Source: Oscillospiraceae bacterium (GTDB lineage Bacteria > Bacillota > Clostridia > Oscillospirales > Oscillospiraceae). Taken from it: 10,317 bases of DNA. Below the pieces are notes generated by a model that saw only the letters and a program-made list of their open reading frames with translations, had not been told where the DNA came from and did not search any database. The DNA is taken from contig JAGBGB010000175.1 in NCBI GenBank assembly GCA_017936205.1, positions 1-10,317 on the forward strand, read 5' to 3'. This document shows positions 1-10,161 of the stretch, one piece after another. Made by a program: the position numbers and the translations under genes. The number at the start of each line of letters is the position of its first letter. Position 1 is the stretch's first letter.

Positions 1-1209
1 GACTTCCGGATGATCCAAGAGATATTGGAGCTTTTCCTCATAGATCCCACAATCCACAGCTACACTGCGGATGGCAAGATGCCTCTGTAGCAGCCTGCGA
101 TGCTGCGGCTCCAAAGGCAGATAGTCTGTCCTCGCAACATCCTCCATACAATCTGCCCAAAGAGTGGGAATGCGGAAGCCCGTTTCTCCCTCCACCACGG
201 TATCCCGATATCCGTCCCAATCGCTGACGACTTGAGGGACAGCGCATGCCATGGCTTCAATTGGCGTAAGGCCAAAGGTTTCCTGAATATTATCCACAGG
301 AGAGGTAAATACATCACAGGCAGAATACAGCGCCGCCCGATCAGAAATCTCCCGATTGGGAAGGATCCGAACCCTGTCCTCAAGGTGGAAATATCCGATC
401 TGTTGGCGGAGCGTGATCTCATAATTCGTAATAGAATCTCCGCAACCTGCAAGGATCAGTTGCATTTTTTTCATAGGGTTCTTCAGAACCAGCTGATGAA
501 ATACATGAAGCAGGGGGTACAGATCCGCCTTGAACAGATCTGAGAATCTGCCAAACCACAGTATCACAAAGGCATCCTGAGGAATGTGGTATGTGTCCCT
601 GGCGACAGTTCGGTCCCGTGGAGAAAAATAGTCCGTATCAATGCCCAGAGGCACTTTTTCCAGACGAATCATAGGACGACTTCTCACCTGTTCCCCCAAA
701 TTTCGAGCCAAAATCGTTTGACACCGATCCAAGATCCGGCGAATGGAGCTGCGAACAGCTTCGGATGTACAGATAATAGCGTCATATGGTTTAAAGGGCA
801 GGAACAGGGTGGGAAGGAAGGTATCCAACAGCAGGTGCTGCTCTGCCAGAGAATGTACTGTATAGGTAATGGGAATGGGCTTCCCTATAGATTCCCGCAG
901 GGCAAGAAGGGGCATTGCATCCTCCTTGACGCTATGGAGAACATCTACGTCCGGCATCAAGGAAGCACCATGGAACAGGAGGTCATATTCACTGACCATC
1001 TGCACCCTTTCTTCCATTCCGGAGGTCTTTGCCATTTCACGGAGTCGATCCTCCTGATATCGCCCCGGTTCGTAGAGACAAACAAGCTTGTCGGCCTTTG
1101 CGTGGCGGAGAAATCCGTCCATCAGGTCACAGGAGGCTGTAAGAAAGCCTGTGACCAGCCCGGTATTCTTTATGGGATGATAGGTGTTTCCTAATAGTCC
1201 TACGTTCAT
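1..1209 (-). CDS. GT4-like glycosyltransferase, C-terminus cut by window edge
   Basis: Open from an ATG at 1209 through all 403 codons to base 1 with no stop, so the C-terminus lies outside the window. The family transfers a sugar from a nucleotide-sugar donor in the cytoplasm with a GT-B fold. The N-terminal half has a Rossmann-like start (MNVGLLGNTYHP) and a PIPITYTVHSL strand. The C-terminal half starts after VPLGIDTDYFSP, a typical GT4 linker. It has R221 and K227 in FGRFSDLFK, the usual donor-phosphate pair, and an E310-x7-E318 motif in ETFGLTPIEAM. It starts 1 nt after the carrier-protein stop, with AAGGA 5 nt upstream of the ATG, so it is cotranscribed and probably translationally coupled. 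Its acceptor is unknown; the Ser/Tyr/Asn-rich precursor core or an acyl-linked intermediate are possible (inference). Fold is well supported, role is not. Confidence 0.85.
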   Translation of the reverse strand, partial: MNVGLLGNTYHPIKNTGLVTGFLTASCDLMDGFLRHAKADKLVCLYEPGRYQEDRLREMAKTSGMEERVQMVSEYDLLFHGASLMPDVDVLHSVKEDAMPLLALRESIGKPIPITYTVHSLAEQHLLLDTFLPTLFLPFKPYDAIICTSEAVRSSIRRILDRCQTILARNLGEQVRSRPMIRLEKVPLGIDTDYFSPRDRTVARDTYHIPQDAFVILWFGRFSDLFKADLYPLLHVFHQLVLKNPMKKMQLILAGCGDSITNYEITLRQQIGYFHLEDRVRILPNREISDRAALYSACDVFTSPVDNIQETFGLTPIEAMACAVPQVVSDWDGYRDTVVEGETGFRIPTLWADCMEDVARTDYLPLEPQHRRLLQRHLAIRSVAVDCGIYEEKLQYLLDHPEV

Positions 1210-1210
1210 A

Positions 1211-1441
1211 TCAGTCCTTCTTCCGGAGCAGTTCCAGCAGATCTGCTACCGTAACCACGTGGACAAAGGCAGACAGATCCATAATCACATTGCATTCACG
1301 TTCTAAGGCGACGAGAGCCATAAGCAGACCCATGGAATTCATCATAAGGTCTGCCTGCAGTTGATCCGAAGGGAGGATCGTGCCGTCTTTGACAGCACCG
1401 CTTTCCCGCAGGATCTCAGATAAGCGTTCCAAAGATATCAT
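1211..1441 (-). CDS. Acyl/peptidyl carrier protein
   Basis: This 76-residue protein has the size and helical pattern of a free-standing acyl carrier protein, which holds acyl groups as thioesters on a 4'-phosphopantetheine arm. The likely attachment serine is S36 in LMMNSMGLLMAL, at the start of the predicted second helix. The family motif is D-S-L/M, so an Asn replaces the usual Asp before the serine. The following ALERECNV and the C-terminal VTVADLLELLRK resemble the recognition helix and last helix of carrier proteins. Its ATG overlaps the ligase stop (ATGA at 1441-1438), implying stoichiometric coupled translation. The neighbour ligase probably loads it and the GNAT two genes upstream may unload it. 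No phosphopantetheinyl transferase is in the window, so a host enzyme would be needed. Confidence 0.82.
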   Translation of the reverse strand: MISLERLSEILRESGAVKDGTILPSDQLQADLMMNSMGLLMALVALERECNVIMDLSAFVHVVTVADLLELLRKKD

Positions 1442-2799
1442 GTTCGTTTCACCTTTCCCATAGCATTTTTCGGAATGGGCTGTGCTCGGATGATCAACTG
1501 ATAGGGATACAGATCCCTCTCCCTCATGATCTCATCAATATGAGGTCTTAGCTGCTCAGAGGAAAGGGGAGTTACGACCGTAACCACCGGGATCTCGTGT
1601 ATCTCGGTTTTATACTGAGAAACCACGCTCTCCTCTATTCCCTCTACGGCGTTGATCCGACTTTCTACATTTTCCGGAATACATTTTCTTCCGTTAGAAA
1701 AGACAAGCATGGAGGACTTTCGTCCCACGATCCAAAGATGTCCACACTCATCAAAGCGTCCCAGATCCCCGGTATGAAGATATCCTTCCCGAATACGGTC
1801 ACGGGTGGCAGCTTCGTCTTGGAAGTAGCCAAGCATTACAGTATCGCCCCCAACCAAAATCTCCCCGTCCTCTGCCAGTTTTACAGACACATGATCCAGA
1901 GGAGGTCCGGCACTGCCTATGCGGATATCCTCTTCCCCCGTTAAAGAAACACAAGGAGAGCACTCTGTCAGGCCATAGGCGGCACAGGGCAGGATCCCAT
2001 GTTGGAGAAGGGTACGGGCTGTTTCTTCCTTCAAAGGTGCTCCGGCACACATGAGCTTCTCCAAGGATCCACCCGTTACGGATTCCGGGGTGGGTGCAGC
2101 GGAAATTGCGGCACATAGGGCGTCTGCCACTGAAGGGGGAATGTGGAGGCTGTGAGGGCGGAAGCTTCGCAGTCCGTGGAAGAAATGGAGGGGCGAGGCC
2201 GGCAGAAATACGCTGACCCCTGCGTGAAGGGGCGCCAACAGATCCGTCAGCAGCCCGAAGAGATGCCGGTAGGGTAACATATGCACCAGCCGTTCTCCCA
2301 ACCAGTAGCGATGACGCATCATGCCTAATTGGGTATCTGTCAGGAGATTCTTCTGAGACAGCACCACACCCTTGGGAACCGCGGAGGTTCCTGAGCTAAA
2401 GGCAACGGTGCAGGGTGCATTGGGCTCAGGCGCCTGTAACATAGAGGGGTCTGCAGGCTCCAACATCAGCCACTGCTCCAGATCCTCCTCTGTCACAACG
2501 GGATAGCCGACCATGGTATCGGGGATGGGATGTCCGTCAGGCAGCAGGCATAGCGTATGCCCCGTAAGGATCAGGGCAAAATAGCCGATGGCAAAGAGCT
2601 TCTGCTGTTCAATGGAGTAAATGACGACACCCTTAGGCACCCGGGTTCCCCCTGCAGCAGCTCTGCGAACAAGCTCCCAAAAATCGGCGAAGCTGATTTC
2701 CTCCCTGTCCGTACAAAACAGAGGCTCTTCTCCGAAGGAGCTTGCGGCATGGAGCAGGAGCTCCTTGAAATCGCGGATCCTATGAACCGGATAAGCCAT
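1438..2799 (-). CDS. AMP-forming acyl ligase (ANL superfamily adenylation enzyme)
   Basis: This 453-residue protein has the ordered motifs of the ANL superfamily, which activates a carboxylic acid as acyl-AMP and passes it to CoA or a carrier-protein thiol. Visible are the phosphate loop SSGTSAVPKG (135-144), YGLTE (275-279), the ribose-binding Asp in TGDLG (D345), GRKSSMLVFSNG (359-370), which holds the hinge arginine, and the C-terminal catalytic lysine in PKNAMGKVKR (K449). It is somewhat shorter than typical acyl-CoA synthetases, with a compact N-terminus. The start at 2799 follows GGAGG by 6 nt and lies 1 nt after the GNAT stop. The stop overlaps the carrier-protein start. With a carrier protein next door, acyl-ACP formation is more likely than acyl-CoA formation (inference). 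The acid cannot be read from the sequence; it may be a fatty or aryl acid. Confidence 0.9.
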   Translation of the reverse strand: MAYPVHRIRDFKELLLHAASSFGEEPLFCTDREEISFADFWELVRRAAAGGTRVPKGVVIYSIEQQKLFAIGYFALILTGHTLCLLPDGHPIPDTMVGYPVVTEEDLEQWLMLEPADPSMLQAPEPNAPCTVAFSSGTSAVPKGVVLSQKNLLTDTQLGMMRHRYWLGERLVHMLPYRHLFGLLTDLLAPLHAGVSVFLPASPLHFFHGLRSFRPHSLHIPPSVADALCAAISAAPTPESVTGGSLEKLMCAGAPLKEETARTLLQHGILPCAAYGLTECSPCVSLTGEEDIRIGSAGPPLDHVSVKLAEDGEILVGGDTVMLGYFQDEAATRDRIREGYLHTGDLGRFDECGHLWIVGRKSSMLVFSNGRKCIPENVESRINAVEGIEESVVSQYKTEIHEIPVVTVVTPLSSEQLRPHIDEIMRERDLYPYQLIIRAQPIPKNAMGKVKRT

Positions 2800-2800
2800 T

Positions 2801-3343
2801 TCACACCTCCGGATGGAGCAATTTGTGCCAGCGCTCTCGGAATTGCTCCCGAGTGATCGTCAGGATCAATAAGTCATGATAGCTGCCGTCATGGTACTTA
2901 TATTCTTTCAAACGTCCCACTTCCTCGAAGCCCCGCTGCAGTGTAGCACAGAGGCTGGCAGCATTATAACTGTAAATGTCGCAGAATACTCTGCGGAAGG
3001 GATAGTAGCAGAAGAGGTAATCCACCATTTTCAGGGCAGCCATTGCGCCGGGACCGTTCCGCCATTGGGGAGCAATATAGACCGCCACCTTGCAATGACC
3101 GTCCCGCATTCTCTGCTCATAGCTGTACACGATCCCGATGGGCTGTCCGTCCCCCAATTCCACCACAAAGAACTCATGATAGAAGTATTTTAAACGGTCC
3201 TGTATCCAACCTTCGAAATCTCGGAGGCTGTTACATGTGCTGTGAGACAGGAACATAGCCTGTTCCTCAGGCGCATTCATCCAGGCGTACAGCACTTCCA
3301 AATGACGGCGGTGATCGTAGCGCACAAACTTAAGATGTTCCAT
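2801..3343 (-). CDS. GNAT-family acyltransferase (RimJ/RimL-like)
   Basis: A 180-residue protein with GNAT features: an acyl-CoA/acyl-donor pyrophosphate loop in VAVYIAPQWRNGPGAMAAL (87-105, with N96-G97-P98-G99) and a later DIYSYNAASLCATLQRGFEEVG segment (122-143) typical of RimJ/RimL-type members. GNAT enzymes transfer acyl groups to amines such as peptide N-termini or lysine. The start is set by GGAGG at 3352-3356, 8 nt before the ATG at 3343; the reading frame is open further upstream but lacks such a site. It overlaps the upstream U32 gene by 14 nt. Just downstream are a ligase and a carrier protein, so the donor may be an acyl-ACP, as in GNAT-acylated RiPPs such as goadvionins (family knowledge). 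The acceptor is not visible; the mature peptide N-terminus or the last residue K98 of the precursor are candidates. Confidence 0.85.
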   Translation of the reverse strand: MEHLKFVRYDHRRHLEVLYAWMNAPEEQAMFLSHSTCNSLRDFEGWIQDRLKYFYHEFFVVELGDGQPIGIVYSYEQRMRDGHCKVAVYIAPQWRNGPGAMAALKMVDYLFCYYPFRRVFCDIYSYNAASLCATLQRGFEEVGRLKEYKYHDGSYHDLLILTITREQFRERWHKLLHPEV

Positions 3344-4310
3344 GGGTGTTACCTCCATAGCGGATTTCAGGATAATAGCAGCTGCAGCCCTGATAGCACA
3401 TATTGTCATACCGCCGAGGCAGCAGTAATTGACTGAGATATTCTTCTCGGGAGCTGCAGCTTGCGGCAAGGTTCAGATTGCGGTTTAGCAGGGCCATTTC
3501 TTCCTCGATACTCTCGGCACCGTCGGCACGGCCTACGATCTTGCCTGCGTGGATCCCCATTTGCATCAGATCCCAAATTGCGCAGATCCCACAAGCGGAT
3601 TTATGAAATACCTGAGAGAAAAACAGGTGATTGAACACTGCTGCATCGTGTGCAGCGAAGGATCGCTCCGCAAGGCCGCAATACCGTGGTTTGGAACGGT
3701 CCAAATAAGTACACAGAGCTCCATAGCGGTCACTGTGCCGTGCAAGACAATGGGAGTCGGAATAACGGCAACCGTTACGCATCAGGAAGCACTCATATTC
3801 CACCCCGGGAACCTGCTCGGTGATTTGTGCGATCTCCCTCAAAGTCAGATCACGGGGAAGAATCAACCGCTGGAAGCCCTGATCTACACAGAATTTGGCA
3901 ATATCCTCATTGTAGATCCCTACCATGGTACTGGCAACCGCCTTCAAGCCCACATCTCGAACCAAGGGGGCAAGATAAGGATCTCCAATAATGATTCCCG
4001 TAATCTGTAGTTCTTTCAGCTGTATCAGTACATCCTTCAGGAATTCTGTCTGCGGAGGGCTGTAGATTCCCGCATTCAGAGTAATGAAGATCTCGTGACC
4101 CTCCGCTGCGGCGACCAGCTCCTTCACAGGAGCGAAGCCCTCCATATTCGCCTGACGCCGAAAGGAGGACATTCTGTTCAGATCTTCCATGGGACCAAAG
4201 GCGTCCTCCCAGCTTTGGAGGCAAAGCCCTGCATAAAATTCTACGTTCTCACCGTATGGCAGCAATCGGGCAATATGCTCCGGAGCATTGACAGGTAACA
4301 GGAGCTTCAT
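3330..4310 (-). CDS. U32-family protein, UbiU-like cysteine pattern
   Basis: A 326-residue protein of the U32 family, which was named for peptidases but includes Fe-S enzymes for oxygen-independent hydroxylation (UbiU/UbiV in ubiquinone synthesis, RlhA and TrhP on RNA). It has the family signature YECFLMRNGCRYSDSHC around 172-188. C181-x6-C188, then C200 and C240/C243, resembles the [4Fe-4S] cysteines reported for UbiU (C169-x6-C176, C193, C232). Extra cysteines occur at the C-terminus (C305, C309, C311). The early part (APVKELVAAAEGHEIFITLNAG) fits a TIM-barrel start. ATG at 4310 overlaps the stop of the smaller U32 gene (ATGA) and follows GGAG by 7 nt; the open frame upstream of it is only the overlap. 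A classical peptidase role is the alternative. Substrate unknown. Confidence 0.82.
   Translation of the reverse strand: MKLLLPVNAPEHIARLLPYGENVEFYAGLCLQSWEDAFGPMEDLNRMSSFRRQANMEGFAPVKELVAAAEGHEIFITLNAGIYSPPQTEFLKDVLIQLKELQITGIIIGDPYLAPLVRDVGLKAVASTMVGIYNEDIAKFCVDQGFQRLILPRDLTLREIAQITEQVPGVEYECFLMRNGCRYSDSHCLARHSDRYGALCTYLDRSKPRYCGLAERSFAAHDAAVFNHLFFSQVFHKSACGICAIWDLMQMGIHAGKIVGRADGAESIEEEMALLNRNLNLAASCSSREEYLSQLLLPRRYDNMCYQGCSCYYPEIRYGGNTHGTS
3352..3356 (-). promoter_or_regulatory. Shine-Dalgarno fixing the GNAT start
   Basis: GGAGG on the minus strand, 8 nt upstream of the ATG at 3343 and inside the end of the U32 gene. It supports 3343 over the in-frame ATG at 3358 and earlier starts. Confidence 0.7.
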
Positions 4311-5131
4311 AGGCTTTCTCCTTTCTCTCCGGGACAGGTCGTTCCGACTTTTGCGGCAAAAACGCTTTCGATCATCCGTATATTGGCAGAATCGGTTTCC
4401 CCAAGCTCTCCGAAAACAGGAGTATACACTGCCCGTCCATGCTTCAGGAAACACTGTGCATTCTGCTCGAACCACATCCAATGAGACATACACTGCCGAT
4501 TACAGGGACGGTATAATTGGAATTTTTCTCCGGCGGGAAGTCCGATAGATCCAAATTCACAGATCCTCCCCATTGTCAGATAGGCAAAGGGAACATGGAT
4601 CCCCAAGCCATAATGGGATATGGGGTAGTCGTTTGGAGAAAGTTGGGTTACATCCGATTCCACGCCCAGGATCTTCCATCGGTTGTGCCACCGGTGCTCC
4701 ACCTGTTCCAAGAGCTTCCCATGAATACCGGGGAGGCAATACCGAGGATCCCGAAGCTCCTTGTCCATGGTACGTCCCAACCAAATGCCGATCCTTGGGT
4801 AGTTGGCAGAGACCCATTCCAGCATACCGCTGTCGTTGACCACCACTTCCTGAATCAGCTCTCCGTATGCGTCCATAAGGGCATGGGTCTGGTTTTTAAG
4901 GGTACCCAAAAGGGCTTGAGACGGAGTAGGAATGACCAGAACCGCAGCGACTCCCCGATCTCGGGCGACTGAAAAGCATTCTTCCCAAATCCTCGGCGAT
5001 GTACTGCAGTAGTATCGGTCACAAAAATAGGATCCCACATACAACAGCTCTGTGTGCTCGGGCAGCGGGGGCTGTCCCTCTGCAAAATATTCCATTGCAT
5101 CACACAGATCGTAGGCATAGTGTATACTCAT
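4307..5131 (-). CDS. Second U32-family protein, UbiV-like cysteine pattern
   Basis: A 274-residue protein read from an ATG at 5131 that overlaps the stop of the radical SAM gene (ATGA), with AAGGA 7-8 nt upstream. The frame is open 23 codons further but that part is overlap. The C-terminal half carries PFAYLTMGRICEFGS and LYRPCNRQC, which match the U32 pattern of UbiV-type proteins. The cysteines C37, C191, C210 and C214 mirror the reported UbiV cluster ligands C39, C180, C193 and C197, including the C-x3-C at the end. UbiV is about the same length. UbiU and UbiV work as a heterodimer, and here the small and large U32 proteins are adjacent with overlapping genes, so I infer a heterodimer. No paralogous ubiquinone genes are nearby, so the substrate is probably the peptide or a moiety attached to it. 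Confidence 0.75.
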   Translation of the reverse strand: MSIHYAYDLCDAMEYFAEGQPPLPEHTELLYVGSYFCDRYYCSTSPRIWEECFSVARDRGVAAVLVIPTPSQALLGTLKNQTHALMDAYGELIQEVVVNDSGMLEWVSANYPRIGIWLGRTMDKELRDPRYCLPGIHGKLLEQVEHRWHNRWKILGVESDVTQLSPNDYPISHYGLGIHVPFAYLTMGRICEFGSIGLPAGEKFQLYRPCNRQCMSHWMWFEQNAQCFLKHGRAVYTPVFGELGETDSANIRMIESVFAAKVGTTCPGEKGESL

Positions 5132-6153
5132 GGCTGAATTCCTTGCTCTTTCAGTGTTTGCCGCAGTGCTTTTAGCCTGTGGGTACGGTAGGCATAGCAT
5201 CCGCAGCTACATTTCCCGGATAGGTACTGCCTGCATTGTGCACAAGCCTCGTTGGGAAGAATATGATAAGCCGGAGCATCCACCTCTAAAAGGAAATGGC
5301 GGCGGAGCTCCTCTGTATTTTGAAAATCCATAAGGGAAACCTTATATAGATCGCTCATTCCAAAACAGCGAACTACCTGCAAGTCCGGGAGGATATCCAA
5401 TACCGGGCTGCAAATGGGATTGATCCGATTCAGGTTGCTGCGTTCCATAGTTGTCTGATATGTTTGGAAAAGCTCCAAGTCCGATGGCTCCAGCAGGCAG
5501 GAGGGAATATAGTTGCAATCGAAATTCGGTGCAACATCGATCTCTAAGAGCTGTTCTAACAGCGACCTCACCAAGGGCTTCATGCTCTTGAAATAAGCCA
5601 GAGGATCAACCTGACGATTCCCCTCTAAATTGGGAACTGCCACGGAAATACGGAGCTTCTTCTGTCGGAACCGCTTGAGCACCTCGATCATATAGGAAAA
5701 ATCCATGTTGGGATCATACAGATTCAATCCCAACCCCACCTGATCTCTCATATAGAGCCGGTTGATCATCTGATCCAAATTATCCATGATCTTCCCATAA
5801 TGTGCAGCTCCGATCTGCTCCTGTGAATTTAGATTGATGAGAATTTGGAACTTGGAATTCCGGAGCTCATTGAAATATCGGTCAACCAGGATCCCGTTTG
5901 TAAAGAGACAGACAGATTGAAAGGGACTGTCTATCAGCGCCCCAAGCATCCGCTTTAAGTCCGGATGCAAGGTAGGTTCTCCCCCGATCAGGCCGATCCG
6001 CTCCCGAGGGTCAGAGGACAGAAACCGCAGACAGGCTTCAAATTGTTCAAAGGACATGATATCGCTCTGCTTGTTGACAAATTCATTGGCGAAGCAGTAG
6101 CTGCAATGAAGATTGCATTGTTTGGTCAGCATAAGATTTGCCAAGGAGATCAC
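5128..6153 (-). CDS. Radical SAM protein with C-terminal auxiliary-cluster cysteines
   Basis: A 341-residue radical SAM enzyme. Reductive cleavage of S-adenosylmethionine by a [4Fe-4S] cluster starts radical chemistry. The cluster motif is C13-N-L-H-C17-S-Y-C20, followed by GGEPTLHP (57-64) for SAM binding. The C-terminus has ICSP, RCFGM and a CAQC-x7-CSCGC cluster (C304, C307, C315, C317, C319), a SPASM-like arrangement for additional Fe-S clusters. The start is GTG at 6153 with GAGAGG closely upstream; spacing is short, and the ATG at codon 8 is a weaker alternative because it would clip the first strand. It lies 77 nt beyond the precursor stop and its stop overlaps the UbiV-like gene. It could make a crosslink or epimerisation on the peptide, or act with the U32 pair. 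The exact reaction cannot be read. Confidence 0.88.
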   Translation of the reverse strand: MISLANLMLTKQCNLHCSYCFANEFVNKQSDIMSFEQFEACLRFLSSDPRERIGLIGGEPTLHPDLKRMLGALIDSPFQSVCLFTNGILVDRYFNELRNSKFQILINLNSQEQIGAAHYGKIMDNLDQMINRLYMRDQVGLGLNLYDPNMDFSYMIEVLKRFRQKKLRISVAVPNLEGNRQVDPLAYFKSMKPLVRSLLEQLLEIDVAPNFDCNYIPSCLLEPSDLELFQTYQTTMERSNLNRINPICSPVLDILPDLQVVRCFGMSDLYKVSLMDFQNTEELRRHFLLEVDAPAYHILPNEACAQCRQYLSGKCSCGCYAYRTHRLKALRQTLKEQGIQP

Positions 6154-6177
6154 CGCCTCTCAAAAGGGAATGGATAA

Positions 6178-6226
6178 ATGGGTGCGTTGACCGGAGCCGC
6201 CTTCGGCATGGCTCCGGTCTACCCAT
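6178..6226 (-). terminator. Strong hairpin between precursor and downstream genes (attenuator or mRNA-stabilising stem)
   Basis: The minus-strand transcript can fold with a perfect 10-bp stem GACCGGAGCC/GGCTCCGGTC (6219-6210 with 6198-6189), an inner GCC-GAA-GGC, and an outer ATGGGT/ACCCAT pair. It begins 4 nt after the precursor stop. No U-tract follows (the next bases are TTATCCATTCCC), so it is not a textbook intrinsic terminator. A partial attenuator or 3'-end stabiliser that raises precursor mRNA relative to the downstream enzymes is the likely role (inference). Confidence 0.65.
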
Positions 6227-6230
6227 AGGA

Positions 6231-6527
6231 TTATTTTCCGCCGGAATAGTTACTCCAGCCACTGTTGGTCCAACCGCTGGAATAGTTATTCCATCCGCTG
6301 TTGAGCCAACTGCCGGAGTAGTTGCTCCAGCCACTGTTGGTCCAACCGCTGGAATAGTTATTCCATCCGCTGTTGATCCAACTGCTGGAATAGTTGCTCC
6401 AGCCTCCATTGGTCCAATCAGATGCCATCATGGGATTTGGTGCATTCAGGATCATGCCGCCGATCGCACCGGCACCTGCAAGAACCGGAGCCCCTGCTTT
6501 TTGGGAAAAAACACGCAGTTTATCCAT
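6231..6527 (-). CDS. RiPP precursor peptide with five W-x-N repeats
   Basis: A 98-residue precursor starting at ATG 6527 with a perfect AGGAGG 7 nt upstream. The frame is open further but the Shine-Dalgarno and codon content set this start. Residues 1-37 form the leader: a basic start (MDKLRVFSQK), a Gly/Ala-rich hydrophobic stretch (11-27) containing GG at 23-24, then NAPNPMMASD. Residues 38-97 are five tandem 12-mers of the form W-x-N-[GS]-G-W-[SN]-N-Y-S-[SG]-[SG], and K98 ends the protein. W1, N3, G5, W6, N8, Y9 and S10 are invariant, giving ten W-x-N motifs and no Cys. The core therefore cannot be a thioether or lanthionine peptide. Trp-x-Asn is the substrate motif of three-residue cyclophane radical SAM maturases (known for XyeB/XncB-type systems), so Trp-ring to Asn C-beta crosslinks are the leading prediction. 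It sits between radical SAM genes and has its own UTR-like gaps on both sides. Confidence 0.88.
   Translation of the reverse strand: MDKLRVFSQKAGAPVLAGAGAIGGMILNAPNPMMASDWTNGGWSNYSSSWINSGWNNYSSGWTNSGWSNYSGSWLNSGWNNYSSGWTNSGWSNYSGGK
6237..6416 (-). repeat. Five tandem 36-bp coding repeats (12 residues each)
   Basis: Five directly adjacent 36-bp units encode the core repeats at residues 38-49, 50-61, 62-73, 74-85 and 86-97. Odd repeats read W-T-N...W-S-N; even ones read W-[IL]-N...W-N-N. The units therefore alternate, and the true period is 72 bp after the first unit. No spacers are present. Confidence 0.93.
6259..6402 (-). repeat. Recent 72-bp tandem duplication within the core
   Basis: Bases 6259-6330 and 6331-6402 differ at only three of 72 positions by eye. 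Such identity, including at wobble positions, points to recent duplication or gene conversion that can change the repeat number of the product. Confidence 0.9.
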
Positions 6528-6534
6528 TTTTATT

Positions 6535-6540
6535 CCTCCT
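6535..6540 (-). promoter_or_regulatory. Strong Shine-Dalgarno of the precursor
   Basis: AGGAGG on the minus strand, 7 nt before the ATG at 6527. It is a perfect consensus site, in keeping with high precursor synthesis, and it fixes the start far inside the longer open frame. Confidence 0.85.
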
Positions 6541-6589: not shown

Positions 6590-7543
6590 TCATTCCTCCA
6601 CATAGGGTAGGATCCTCTTTGCCACAGACTCCCCAAAATATCGGTATGCGGAATGCCATACACCGGGACATTGGTCTGCGACACAGCAGCCCTCACAGGC
6701 ACGGAAATAAATGTTACAGTCGTTCTCTACCTCAGTATGGAGATTAACGGCTCCCGTCTTCCTCTCGGGCGCACTGTACTGGGATAAGCAGCTACGGGAA
6801 ACCTTGGTAAAGAAGCCCCAGTAAAAAGGGTCTACGGAGCACAGAGGCAGATCTGCCACTGTTACCTGAGGGAATGCCCCAAACTGTTGTCTGAGGGAAA
6901 TGACGAAATCCAGAGCCTGCTCCAAGCTGCTTCCCATAGTGGGATAGTCTACGGCTACCCGGGCAATTTGTTCCCCTGTCATGCCGCAGAAATCCATACC
7001 ACACAGAGTCAGGCTCACAAAGGGACCATAGCTTTTGTACACGAAATCCACGAAGTCCGGTAACCGGTCGTAATTCCAGCGACTGATCACCTGCTTCACC
7101 GTAACAGGGATCCCCAAATGAACCAAATTCAGAAGCCCTTGGACGGTTCTCAGGAAGCTGCCCGGCACATCGGTCACCCGCTCATGGATAGAGGGCAAAT
7201 CGCTGTGAATAGCTGTTGTAACGCTAACAGAGCGGGGATCTACATCCTCGAAAAGTGCCGCTGTGCGATCCTTGTCTGCCAAGCTGTCTCCGTTGGACAA
7301 AACAGAAACCTGCAAGCCGTGATCCACGCAATATTTCAGAATATGATGAAAATCGGGGTGCAGGGTAGGTTCTCCACCGGAAAGGGTAATGTGATCGATC
7401 CCTCGATCCCTGATCCCCACATCAATGGCATGAAGCAGCTGCGCCTTCTCCCCAAAGGGAGTCAAGCCGTTCTTTTCTCCGCAAGGGCAGAAAAAGCATC
7501 GATGGTTACACAGATACCCCAATGCCAAATACATAGAAGCCAT
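6590..7543 (-). CDS. Radical SAM maturase, HxsC-like position and size
   Basis: A 317-residue radical SAM protein. The cluster motif is C12-N-H-R-C16-F-F-C19, followed by LSGGEPTLHP (54-63). There is no full SPASM domain, but the C-terminus has C276, then CEGCCVADQCPG (283-294) and HSAYRYFG, a pattern common in radical SAM peptide maturases. The start ATG at 7543 is 1 nt after the SPASM gene stop, with GGAG 9 nt upstream. The two radical SAM genes are thus coupled, as in the paired radical SAM proteins HxsB/HxsC, whose sizes match (family knowledge, from memory). The precursor follows by 62 nt. It probably acts on the same precursor or assists the SPASM enzyme; which of the two makes the crosslink is unknown. 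Family-level identity with HxsC is not certain. Confidence 0.88.
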   Translation of the reverse strand: MASMYLALGYLCNHRCFFCPCGEKNGLTPFGEKAQLLHAIDVGIRDRGIDHITLSGGEPTLHPDFHHILKYCVDHGLQVSVLSNGDSLADKDRTAALFEDVDPRSVSVTTAIHSDLPSIHERVTDVPGSFLRTVQGLLNLVHLGIPVTVKQVISRWNYDRLPDFVDFVYKSYGPFVSLTLCGMDFCGMTGEQIARVAVDYPTMGSSLEQALDFVISLRQQFGAFPQVTVADLPLCSVDPFYWGFFTKVSRSCLSQYSAPERKTGAVNLHTEVENDCNIYFRACEGCCVADQCPGVWHSAYRYFGESVAKRILPYVEE

Positions 7544-7544
7544 A

Positions 7545-8909
7545 CTACACCGCTCCGTTCAGTAAATATTGACCAAAGGACGGTTCGGCTAAGAGAAGCT
7601 CTACCAATCTCGGGTAAAGTTCCCGATTGAACCGACATTCTGTTTGGTCGATCCCCAAGGGGCTGCCTGTATCATACTTAGCCGCAGACCGACAGCCTCC
7701 ACGGCAGTAATACCACCAGGGACAATCCGCACAGGCAGACGTATCCCGTTGTCGGAAGTACTCATGACCTTCGGCTATGGCTGTGTGTACCATTTCCTCA
7801 AGATCCCCACGGCAGACCTGCCCCAAACAATAGTCAGCATAGTCGCTGAGCTCACAAGGATAGACCCCGCCCTCAGTATCTATGGAAAGCATACGGTAGC
7901 CTCCATGACACCCGTGGGCGTTACAGATATTATTATTTGGTCGGAACAGGAGATTGGCAATTCTCTGGGCAATGTTCTGTTCCACAATGGAAAGTCCCTC
8001 CTGATAGAACCCACGCATACAGCGGAGCAGGGTGTCTACATATTGAGGGATCTCCTCTAAGGAAATAGCCAAATCCCGATTGTACTCGTTCCTGCGCATC
8101 AAGTTCAGCTTTACAGTGGGGAGTTGGAGGGTATGGGCAAAATAATCCATGATCTCCGGCAAATGTCTCAGGGTATTCCGTGTGACTACTGTAATCGTGC
8201 CGAAGTGTCTGTAGCCTGCAGAGCGGAGGTGTTCTATTCCTCGCTCTACCATTTGCAGAGAGGGACCTCCGCCTCGGGTAGGACGTTGCGCATTATGCAC
8301 CGAACCGATCCCGTCGATGCTGATGCCTACCTGTATCTGGTTTTCAAACAAAACGCTTGCTGTTTCGGCAGAGATCAAAGCCCCATTGGTTTCAATTACG
8401 ATTTCCGGCGAGAGGTCAGCCTCCCGGAATCTTTGTCGTAACCGGACGATGGATTCCAGCTCCAGAAGAGGCTCCCCACCCCATGCCTGAATGCTGAGCT
8501 TCCGTTCAGGATGCTTCCGTGCATAGGAAATCAATCCTCGGCAAATTCGATCCAGCGCCTCAGGGGTGATCCACTTCTTCCTCTCTTCCGGGGTGCGGAA
8601 GCAGTATGTACAGCACAAATTACAGTCTTTGGTCAAGTCAATAAGGAAGAAGGCTGGTTGAATTTCCTCCGAGAAGGAGGAAATGGGGCGGCTATGGGGA
8701 TGCTGTGCCATTCCCCGCTGGATCAGCAGGAAAGCAAGATCCTCAGACAGCGTCTGCCCTTGCAGTTCCTCTGCACAGTCTGCAGAAAGGGCCAATGTGG
8801 TTCCCGTCTCCGGGCAGAGCACCATGACTCCCGAGCTGCAAATACAGGCAATTAACCTACTGACAGAGATATCTCCGTATGAGAAGGGGGGGATCACCCG
8901 ATATTCCAT
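7545..8909 (-). CDS. Radical SAM/SPASM peptide maturase, HxsB-like
   Basis: A 454-residue radical SAM protein with a full SPASM domain, the likely main maturase of the W-x-N precursor. Order: an N-terminal region (about 1-80) with a CPETGTTLALSADCAEEL stretch and a following short helix resembling the precursor-contact segments of SPASM maturases; C96-N-L-C-C100-T-Y-C103 for the SAM cluster; AWGGEPLLEL (142-151); and SPASM cysteines C334-x17-C352, then CADC-x5-C-x3-C (393-406) and C425. The start chosen, 8909, overlaps the upstream stop as TAATG and opens on domain-like sequence (MEYRVIPPF). An ATG at 8936 has GGAGG 5 nt upstream and would add nine residues, so it remains possible. SPASM enzymes of this kind form C-C, thioether or cyclophane links in peptides. 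The absence of Cys in the core favours C-C cyclophanes (inference). Confidence 0.92.
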   Translation of the reverse strand: MEYRVIPPFSYGDISVSRLIACICSSGVMVLCPETGTTLALSADCAEELQGQTLSEDLAFLLIQRGMAQHPHSRPISSFSEEIQPAFFLIDLTKDCNLCCTYCFRTPEERKKWITPEALDRICRGLISYARKHPERKLSIQAWGGEPLLELESIVRLRQRFREADLSPEIVIETNGALISAETASVLFENQIQVGISIDGIGSVHNAQRPTRGGGPSLQMVERGIEHLRSAGYRHFGTITVVTRNTLRHLPEIMDYFAHTLQLPTVKLNLMRRNEYNRDLAISLEEIPQYVDTLLRCMRGFYQEGLSIVEQNIAQRIANLLFRPNNNICNAHGCHGGYRMLSIDTEGGVYPCELSDYADYCLGQVCRGDLEEMVHTAIAEGHEYFRQRDTSACADCPWWYYCRGGCRSAAKYDTGSPLGIDQTECRFNRELYPRLVELLLAEPSFGQYLLNGAV

Positions 8910-9181
8910 TACTCCAGCACCCCCTGTCTCATCCATTCCTCCATAAGCTCCCCGACAGGAACCTGTGGCAGCTCCCGACGGAAGTGATCACGGAGGGCAG
9001 TCTCTTCAACGCCCTGCTGCAACAGGGATAAGAGCGCTTCTCCCTGTGCTCCGCTGCAAGGTAAGGATACCGTAGTGGCGAACAGAGTGCTTCTGATCAC
9101 CAGTTCCCGTTCTCCCACCCACACGGTAGTATATGGAGATAAGTAAATCATATTATCCTGTGTTCCATGATAGATTCTCAT
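8909..9181 (-). CDS. Small protein in HxsD position, possible peptide-binding partner
   Basis: A 90-residue protein I cannot assign by motif. It starts with a beta-like stretch (YLSPYTTVWVGERELVIRS) and ends with helices (LRDHFRRELPQVPVGELMEEWMRQGVLE). Its ATG overlaps the kinase stop (ATGA) and its TAA overlaps the maturase ATG, so it is tightly coupled to the SPASM enzyme. The size and place directly before the paired radical SAM genes match HxsD of the His-Xaa-Ser system, but I do not see a clear HxsD signature. A RiPP recognition element of the PqqD kind, which binds the leader and presents it to the maturase, is the other obvious possibility. Both readings are inference from context. Confidence 0.7.
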   Translation of the reverse strand: MRIYHGTQDNMIYLSPYTTVWVGERELVIRSTLFATTVSLPCSGAQGEALLSLLQQGVEETALRDHFRRELPQVPVGELMEEWMRQGVLE

Positions 9182-10101
9182 AGGCTGCTCCCTTGTTCTG
9201 TTAATAGATCTCCCAGTCGGTCGGCAAGAGCCCGGCAGGAATGCAGTCGCTGCTTCGGATCCGGCTCCAAACCGTGAAGGAACAGCGTCAGCAAACTGTT
9301 ACACCGTTCCTTCGACCATCCGAGAAGTCGGGGCTGAATATTGGAAATGAATCCTTCTCGGATCCGTTCCCGTTCAAAATTCCCCCCAAGCTTCCTGAAC
9401 AACATCGCACATATGCTGTATACATCACTGTGAAAGCCAACCAAGGGATTTCGGCAGGCGATCAATTCCGCCGGCGCTGTTTCGCTGGAGCACAGGAAGC
9501 TTTTTTGGTATCCGATCCTCCTGCAGGGGATCATACTATCAAAATCTGCCAATCGCACAGCAACATCCCCTCGGGGTAGAGGCTCCACCAAAAAATTTGA
9601 TGCCTTAATATCTATCAGAAGCCACTGCATCCTGTGTACTTCTTCACAAAAGGTAGCGATCCGAAATCCGATCTGCAAAATCTGTTCCGGCGTTTCTCCT
9701 GCAACGGCATCCCAAGAAGTCCCGTCCAGCCCCTCCGTAACAGTATATATGGTTCCTTGCCCAACATACAGCGCCCACAGCCCCACAACTGCGTCCATGG
9801 TTCTCGGCTCCTCTCGGAGGAGAAATGCGACCTTCCCTGCTCTCAAGCAACGGCACCATGCTCGGAACCACTGCAGGGACCCGGCAGGGGCTTTCCTGAG
9901 AGCGATTCGACCTTTTTCGGTTCTGGTCAACAAGCCCTTTTCTCGTAGGGAGAGAGGAAACAGCTCCTTTACCACGCAGGGGATCCCTGCACGCTCTGCG
10001 GAATATACCAAATTGCTGCAGCCGGATGCGATCTGATGACCAATGGTAAATGGTTGGGGACCCGTTCTGATATGGGAGAGGAGAAACGAAATGGTTTTCA
10101 T
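9178..10101 (-). CDS. Eukaryotic-like Ser/Thr protein kinase
   Basis: A 307-residue protein kinase fold with most catalytic motifs. The Gly-rich loop is degenerate (GHQIASGCSNLVYSA, 21-35). K45 in VVKE is the ATP lysine. The catalytic loop reads IDIKASN (D164, K166, N169), with HRMQW just before it instead of a clean HRD. The metal-binding Asp is D186 in ADFDS rather than DFG. An APE-like segment (TAPAE, 208-212), D226 in HSDVYS and R285 in DPKQR complete the C-lobe. No membrane segment or sensor domain is seen, so it is a compact cytoplasmic kinase. The start at 10101 follows AGGAGG by 8 nt; the frame is open 12 codons further. It opens the operon and overlaps the next gene (ATGA). It could phosphorylate the Ser/Tyr-rich precursor, or a regulator. 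No lanthipeptide-type lyase or cyclase domain is present. Confidence 0.9.
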   Translation of the reverse strand: MKTISFLLSHIRTGPQPFTIGHQIASGCSNLVYSAERAGIPCVVKELFPLSLREKGLLTRTEKGRIALRKAPAGSLQWFRAWCRCLRAGKVAFLLREEPRTMDAVVGLWALYVGQGTIYTVTEGLDGTSWDAVAGETPEQILQIGFRIATFCEEVHRMQWLLIDIKASNFLVEPLPRGDVAVRLADFDSMIPCRRIGYQKSFLCSSETAPAELIACRNPLVGFHSDVYSICAMLFRKLGGNFERERIREGFISNIQPRLLGWSKERCNSLLTLFLHGLEPDPKQRLHSCRALADRLGDLLTEQGSSL

Positions 10102-10109
10102 ACGTGCTT

Positions 10110-10115
10110 CCTCCT
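10110..10115 (-). promoter_or_regulatory. Shine-Dalgarno fixing the kinase start
   Basis: AGGAGG on the minus strand, 8 nt before the ATG at 10101. It favours this start over the in-frame ATG at 10137. Confidence 0.75.
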
Positions 10116-10161
10116 TTCCGAATTCATTGGACCCCATTCTTTAGAGTAGAATACAGCTTTC

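Follow-up and report, generated by a model that had tools for sequence, protein, structure and literature searches.

In the triceptide systems (XncB, OscB/GrrM, FxsB and YhhB), a SPASM radical SAM enzyme is encoded beside a precursor with aromatic-x-Asn/Asp motifs, and the three-residue cyclophane enzyme OscB is described as joining C7 of Trp to the Cβ of Asn or Asp (PMC11002830). The window, by which we mean the whole 10,317-nucleotide stretch of contig JAGBGB010000175.1 analysed here, which comes from a gut-type anaerobe of the Oscillospiraceae, likewise places a SPASM enzyme beside such a precursor, and the tolerance of OscB for Asn and Asp (PMC11002830) parallels the W-x-N and W-x-D triplets of the window's family. 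Unlike the triceptide systems, the window encodes a stand-alone RRE protein, an HxsC-like enzyme as its second radical SAM member, a precursor with up to ten motifs, acyl genes and U32 genes, and its maturase scores fall under the curated cut-offs.

The pairing of a SPASM enzyme with an HxsC-like partner is common to the window cluster and the His-Xaa-Ser system, and the two also agree in the small additional protein and the repetitive precursor that belong to the Hxs make-up. However, the window precursor (P0001) contains no His and hence no His-x-Ser repeat, the second radical SAM enzyme reaches only 123.7 bits against its best NCBIfam match, HxsC (TIGR03977; cut-off 267.9), and the SPASM enzyme scores 104.4 bits against HxsB (cut-off 370). 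The top NCBIfam model for the SPASM enzyme is the dynobactin maturase DynA, yet at 138.8 bits against a cut-off of 450.

A published map of SPASM enzymes notes Aro-x-x-Asn repeats and HxsB/HxsC clusters (PMC9062424). The window's family is absent from the accessible part of that map and goes unmentioned in the accessible part of a Bacteroidales mining study (PMC10352776), and our literature search, with most subscription papers outside its scope, yielded no recognised description of it. That the window cluster represents a new radical SAM RiPP family, its chemistry being predicted, is well supported by the results below, and by analogy the family is best read as combining a variant form of triceptide-type chemistry with an Hxs-like architecture.

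Organization of the gene cluster

The cluster (Table 1) reads in the order RRE protein, SPASM radical SAM enzyme, HxsC-like radical SAM enzyme, precursor and third radical SAM protein. As expected of a RiPP system, a short precursor with a conserved leader and a variable core lies beside its maturases. The preliminary description had treated 7545-9181 as a single gene; in fact, 8909-9181 and 7545-8909/8936 are separate ORFs, each in its own frame, that meet in a TAATG overlap, from which we chose 8909 as the SPASM start.

Table 1. Predicted features of the window and the evidence for each.
Feature	Position	Strand	Basis or remark
Kinase-like protein	9178..10137	-	PF00069 28.8 bits, slightly below cut-off 31.7; cluster membership uncertain
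90-aa protein, predicted RRE fold	8909..9181	-	Fold prediction
Radical SAM/SPASM maturase	7545..8909 (ORF also open from 8936)	-	PF04055 and PF13186
Second radical SAM enzyme, HxsC-like	6590..7543	-	PF04055; HxsC TIGR03977 below cut-off
Precursor ribosome-binding site	6535..6540	-	Strong; AGGAGG, read 6540-6535; ATG at 6527
Precursor, 98 aa, ATG-to-TAA ORF	6231..6527	-	Five repeat units
Stable RNA hairpin just 3′ of precursor stop	6154..6233	-	-32.2 kcal/mol, z -3.9
Third radical SAM protein	5128..6153	-	PF04055
Partner of U32 protein	4307..5200	-	No Pfam match; adjoins U32 gene
U32 family protein, possible O2-independent oxidase	3330..4313	-	PF01136 97.8 bits, cut-off 22.4
GNAT acyltransferase	2801..3349	-	PF13302, PF13523 and PF13420 over cut-off
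AMP-dependent acyl ligase	1438..2799	-	PF00501 134.7 bits, cut-off 29.9
Acyl carrier protein (ACP)	1211..1441	-	PF00550 24.2 bits, cut-off 20.8
Glycosyltransferase, cut by window edge	1..1209	-	PF13692 and PF00534; pathway membership uncertain

The third radical SAM protein is 62-66% identical to its counterparts in two related loci, L003 and L007, and the glycosyltransferase is 60% identical to its counterpart in L003. Among the loci examined, L003 is also the sole other carrier of the kinase-like gene. The kinase-like product also weakly matches defence kinases of the PD-T4-6 type (best E 2.1e-9).

The hairpin that follows the precursor has a likeness in L003, placed 19 bases 3′ of the precursor stop; L007 offers at best a weaker local hairpin at a distance of 118 bases, with nothing comparable directly after the stop. 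Such a hairpin may separate the level of the precursor from that of the downstream genes. Promoter and terminator scans scored at or below chance, and an Rfam scan gave no match. The host assembly is 72.5% complete and split into 364 contigs, so that misbinning of the contig is possible; against this, most of the window operon is also present in L003 and L007.

A repeat precursor with ten W-x-N triplets

The precursor consists of a leader (residues 1-36, MDKLRVFSQKAG...) and a core (residues 37-98) that holds five units of the form W-x-N-x-G-W-x-N-Y-S-x-x, starting at residues 38, 50, 62, 74 and 86, and ends in the tail GGK. TRF recovers a 36-bp unit in five copies (score 227), and all ten core Trp lie within W-x-N, which bears out the preliminary description of a Cys-free precursor with five 12-residue repeats and two W-x-N triplets in each. 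The N-Y-S described there as invariant is indeed present in all five window units, but it does not hold across the family (NYG in P0010 and one NSS in P0004).

In 20,000 residue shuffles, the number of W-x-N triplets averaged 1.9, with a maximum of 7, and never reached 10, which excludes a chance arrangement given the composition. Comparison of the five units reveals 14 synonymous and no nonsynonymous differences in the columns W, N, G, W, N and Y, against similar rates in the remaining columns (pN 0.27, pS 0.31); since unit pairs are not independent, these counts describe constraint and give no test statistic. At the level of the coding sequence, then, the motif residues of the repeat are under constraint. 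P0001 matched no NCBIfam precursor family. Membership in a named family was rejected for the seven precursors scanned (P0001 and those of L007, L012, L015, L016, L021 and L022), the only NCBIfam match being a chance one (L021, lacB, E 0.13).

The peptide is known from its gene sequence, with no modification observed, and it could in principle be an unmodified, low-complexity structural repeat that the radical SAM genes adjoin by chance. We consider this highly improbable in view of the constrained motif residues, the predicted RRE, the conserved leader and the co-localisation of precursor and maturases in both Clostridia and Bacteroidales.

Homologous precursors conserve the triplet

A protein search returned 19 homologous precursors, each inspected at full length, and 17 further precursors were found beside related maturases; in both sets the triplets are of the form W-x-[N/D/H] and are arranged in one to five units. 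Profile A2, an alignment of 40 HxsC-like proteins, matched 77 loci in genome_contigs (L003-L079) and 31 in viral_contigs. Neighbours and precursors were examined in 27 of the 77 (L003-L029), in the best of the 31 (L101) and in 14 short loci (L081-L083, L132-L136 and L139-L144). A precursor was recognised by the leader motif plus W-x-[NDH], or by several W-x-[NDH], and chance regex ORFs were dropped by eye in L003 (antisense), L005, L009, L012, L016, L021, L022, L023 and L101. By this rule, 17 loci hold a precursor (L003-L008, L010-L013, L015-L017, L020-L022 and L101), and none was assigned in L009, L014, L018, L019, L023-L029 or the 14 short loci.

The leader motif [VILM][FY]Sx[KR] is found in all homologous precursors except that of L022, which nevertheless lies between a GNAT gene and an HxsC-like gene. 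The peptides of Bacteroidales, Lachnospiraceae and Blautia also have leader and gene neighbourhood in common.

Of the 173 Trp in the query and its 19 homologs, 166 are followed at +2 by Asn, the remaining seven by D (three) and T, Y, H and L (one each). Pooling all 37 precursors gives 215 N at +2, alongside 24 D, 8 A, 5 H, 4 S, 3 K and five other residues once each, with four more Trp whose +2 position falls beyond the peptide end; these pooled counts are biased upward, because the recognition rule favours conserved motifs and ORFs were dismissed by eye. When the near copies of L011 (L006, L013 and L015) are left out, the 34 distinct precursors give a +2 entropy of 1.04 bits, the lowest among offsets -4 to +7, followed by 1.91. 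The distance between successive Trp, by comparison, takes chiefly the values 5 and 7 within an overall range of 2 to 12, P0010 has 11-residue units, and L022 has irregular linkers. Spacing and linkers thus vary while +2 stays, which identifies the triplet, and not the repeat, as the constrained unit. As in triceptide substrates, an Asn/Asp-like residue is conserved at position 3 of aromatic-x-x. The preliminary description had asked whether homologs keep W and N; they do, with variable linkers, and the loss of these positions that would have counted against it did not occur.

In L007, L020 and L022, each unit has Asp in the first triplet and Asn in the second. The Bacteroidales precursors, that of L015 among them, contain a single unit (SWMNNGWNNWGAICN) and extra Trp without N or D at +2, which in several relatives take the form W-E-S and W-G-A.

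Unit number also differs between near-identical precursors, with five in the window and three in P0002 at 93-94% identity. This could suit a multi-copy cassette from which each repeat is excised as a small bicyclic peptide, leaving no rod. However, the lower number in P0002 may be an assembly collapse of repeats, and neither an exporter nor a protease was found among the Pfam-scanned window genes or the assigned genes of L003, save the U32 protein, a peptidase by name. We regard excision as quite unlikely.

Co-localisation of precursor and maturases spans Clostridia and Bacteroidales. The precursor was present in 1 of 400 genomes of the window's own family, namely the window's own, and the notion that it is common in its taxon was rejected. 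The looser A2 matched 4 of 345 genomes at the level of order and 6 of 391 at class, together with 8 of 397 for the G722 family and 1 of 17 for the G718 genus, each count including its centre genome; beyond the centres and the L021-bearing G730, all of these matches are weak, with E values of 1e-46 at best. A phage or plasmid home likewise received no support: A1 had no match in viral_contigs, the best of the 31 A2 loci there, L101, was the one inspected, and the matches elsewhere were four plasmid records at 26.5% and one phage at 24.5%. Relatives are present in Gemmiger sp. An120 (L022) and in Blautia caecimuris DSM 29492 (L016), which makes bench work possible.

The RRE-like protein and the radical SAM enzymes

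The product of 8909-9181 is predicted to fold into three strands followed by three helices, an arrangement of the RRE type that points to a leader-binding subunit. The RRE assignment comes from the predicted fold; sequence models gave no match. Its identification as HxsD found no support either: among 19 RRE-like proteins, none matched the HxsD model, which is presumably in the library, at E up to 5.

In the SPASM enzyme, the motifs CX3CX2C, CX12GX4C and CX2CX5CX3C are all present, the first and third of them in all 18 SPASM proteins inspected, that of the window among them; a looser regex for the first half of SPASM missed one, L003. PF13186 is matched at 27.9 bits (cut-off 21.5). None of the named triceptide maturase models reaches its cut-off (GrrM 100.8/310, FxsB 67.6/370, YhhB 90.9/445 and AmcB 106.5/425 bits), and ranthipeptide (PapB) and sulfatase maturases stand alongside cyclophane formers among the best models. 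For the three radical SAM proteins, every NCBIfam family among the best 25 of 44, 73 and 59 matches lies far below cut-off, and the predicted linkage type consequently rests on motif analogy. The HxsC-like enzyme has four C-terminal Cys (235, 283, 286 and 292) that are invariant in the A2 alignment of 40, which could suffice for one auxiliary cluster.

Several related loci show other arrangements. L006, L011, L013 and L015 each contain two maturase pairs, and the second SPASM enzyme of L011 scores 287.3 of 400 bits against the FibroRumin maturase model. L027 and L028, from archaeal and Buchananbacteria MAGs, have rows of several HxsC-like genes, those of L028 beside a U32 pair. Directly 3′ of a related SPASM gene, L025:12630-12782 is a 50-aa ORF with contiguous W-x-A triplets (WTAWPAWTAWDAWTAWDAS), possibly a back-to-back triplet substrate.

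A model for cross-linking of the core

From sequence, fold prediction and analogy, we propose as fairly probable a radical SAM RiPP pathway in which an RRE-presented core acquires Trp-Asn C-C bonds within W-x-N, forming up to ten cyclophanes. The RRE protein would bind the leader through its VFSxK motif and hand the core over to the two maturases, SPASM and HxsC-like, both of which would act on it. By analogy with OscB, the Trp ring would be joined to the Cβ of the Asn two residues on, so that one 62-residue core could carry up to ten three-residue cyclophanes. The presence of two triplet types and two maturases suggests a division of labour, and we speculate that the enzymes split W-[TIL]-N/D (before Gly) and W-[SN]-N (before Tyr) between them. 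The peptide is probably cross-linked by radical SAM enzymes into a long, stiff product. As a prediction, the candidate W-x-N radical SAM RiPP of the preliminary description gains support from the predicted RRE fold, the two maturases upstream and the conservation in homologs. Points against the pathway are the radical SAM scores far under the family cut-offs, the Trp of several relatives without N or D at +2 and the missing leader motif in L022.

A somewhat unlikely alternative is that the radical SAM enzymes catalyse a different reaction on the peptide (epimerisation, hydroxylation or the formation of Trp-Trp, Trp-Tyr or Trp-N bonds), or that one enzyme forms part of the linkages and the other performs different chemistry. 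The window does hold three radical SAM genes, a Trp-Trp spacing of 5 (113/222) and Tyr at +3 (83/251) are also common, and the SPASM enzyme scores as near to dynobactin and ranthipeptide maturases as to those of triceptides. In homologs, however, the spacing between triplets and the Tyr are far more variable than Asn/Asp at +2.

If Trp-Asn cross-linking is correct, the cluster would use dual radical SAM enzymes and a stand-alone RRE to make a polymer that is genetically encoded, cross-linked between Trp and Asn and extendable in tandem, and the family would provide a natural length series, from one to five units, for multi-site processing in one chain.

A putative acylation module and the U32 pair

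A C-terminal Lys ends 19 of the 20 proteins formed by the query and its homologs; the sole exception, P0015, comes from a contig of 522 bp and is apparently truncated. Profile searches (E up to 1e-5) located the ligase/ACP/GNAT module in the window, L003, L004, L005, L007, L019 and L022. Within the 18 precursor loci, window included, the module is present in 6/6 with a Lys-tailed precursor and 0/12 others, among which L006 is a short locus of 8.8 kb. The corresponding Fisher p of 5.4e-5 ignores kinship, several of the 12 being near relatives, and the Lys-tail rows occupy two places on the SPASM tree, a five-row clade and L022, so that there are two independent contrasts at best. In P0085, moreover, an HxsC-like enzyme is fused to a GNAT akin to that of the window (26% over 177 aa, E 4e-25 for the pair).

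This association of the acyl module with Lys-tailed precursors is new and suggests acylation. As judged from co-occurrence, the module probably acylates the peptide once cross-linked, most simply on the conserved C-terminal Lys. Acylation of Lys side chains by GNAT enzymes is known in RiPPs, and in selidamides and nostolysamides, as in the window, a GNAT gene lies beside the RiPP (PMC13060382). Unlike in those systems, the window GNAT is accompanied by an ACP and an AMP-dependent ligase, the core lacks Cys for lanthionines, and acylation is a prediction.

GNAT, ligase and ACP might instead form a separate pathway that leaves the peptide untouched, given that the module is missing from many related clusters and that L019 has it without a recognised precursor. 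We find this quite possible, if doubtful, as Lys tail and module agree in 18/18 precursor loci, in two tree branches, and the fusion in P0085 ties a GNAT to a radical SAM enzyme.

The U32 gene and its partner are adjacent in the window, L003, L007, L021 and L028; L018, a 3.7-kb contig, encodes a 597-aa relative of the partner and no U32 gene. Cys residues are conserved in both proteins (five relatives), those invariant in the partner being Cys 60, 214, 233 and 237, and the published CX6CX15CX3C motif is matched in the window solely at its CX6C start (C182-C189). An adjacent pair, one U32 member and conserved Cys are features shared with UbiU/UbiV; unlike there, the window partner has no U32 Pfam match, or any other, and its AF2 model is too poor to be used for fold (pLDDT 49). 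A search for relatives of the pair among solved structures gave none useful. U32 oxidases hydroxylate without O2 (PMC11574389, PMC10470549), and by analogy the window pair may do the same, which we offer as a lead. If true, ACP-dependent acylation and an anaerobic hydroxylase would be predicted in one RiPP pathway.

W-x-N repeats in larger proteins

L003 also encodes (11697-13568) a 623-aa protein in which a TIR domain (PF13676 48.2 bits, cut-off 28) is combined with W-x-N repeats that closely resemble those of the L003 precursor, partly decayed and with some W replaced. No leader motif was seen at its N-terminus. Its homologs are P0141 (98%) and P0142 (76%), the latter with ten clean triplets by eye. 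In the window's genome, at its 72.5% completeness, no TIR protein was found beyond the repeat match. The FxSxx-COOH system presumably contains a TIR-like protein too, FxsC. In L020 (2739-3404), the precursor repeats are fused to a CFI-box-CTERM domain within a 221-aa protein, and this C-terminal domain is the sole NCBIfam match of the L020 precursor (NF041770 47.3 bits, cut-off 40).

A full scheme would combine the ten-cyclophane rod with ACP-dependent Lys acylation by the GNAT, hydroxylation by the U32 pair and a W-x-N module in TIR and CFI-box proteins (L003, P0141, P0142 and L020). We hold it unlikely that all of these parts are correct together; if they were, cross-linked repeat rods would reach beyond small molecules and serve bacterial signalling or immunity as modules that can be embedded in proteins.

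At L145:2576-5085, 3′ of the TIR gene and beside it, we note another SPASM radical SAM enzyme, whose best model is ScmE (105.6 of 400 bits), together with a second protein that has a TIR domain.
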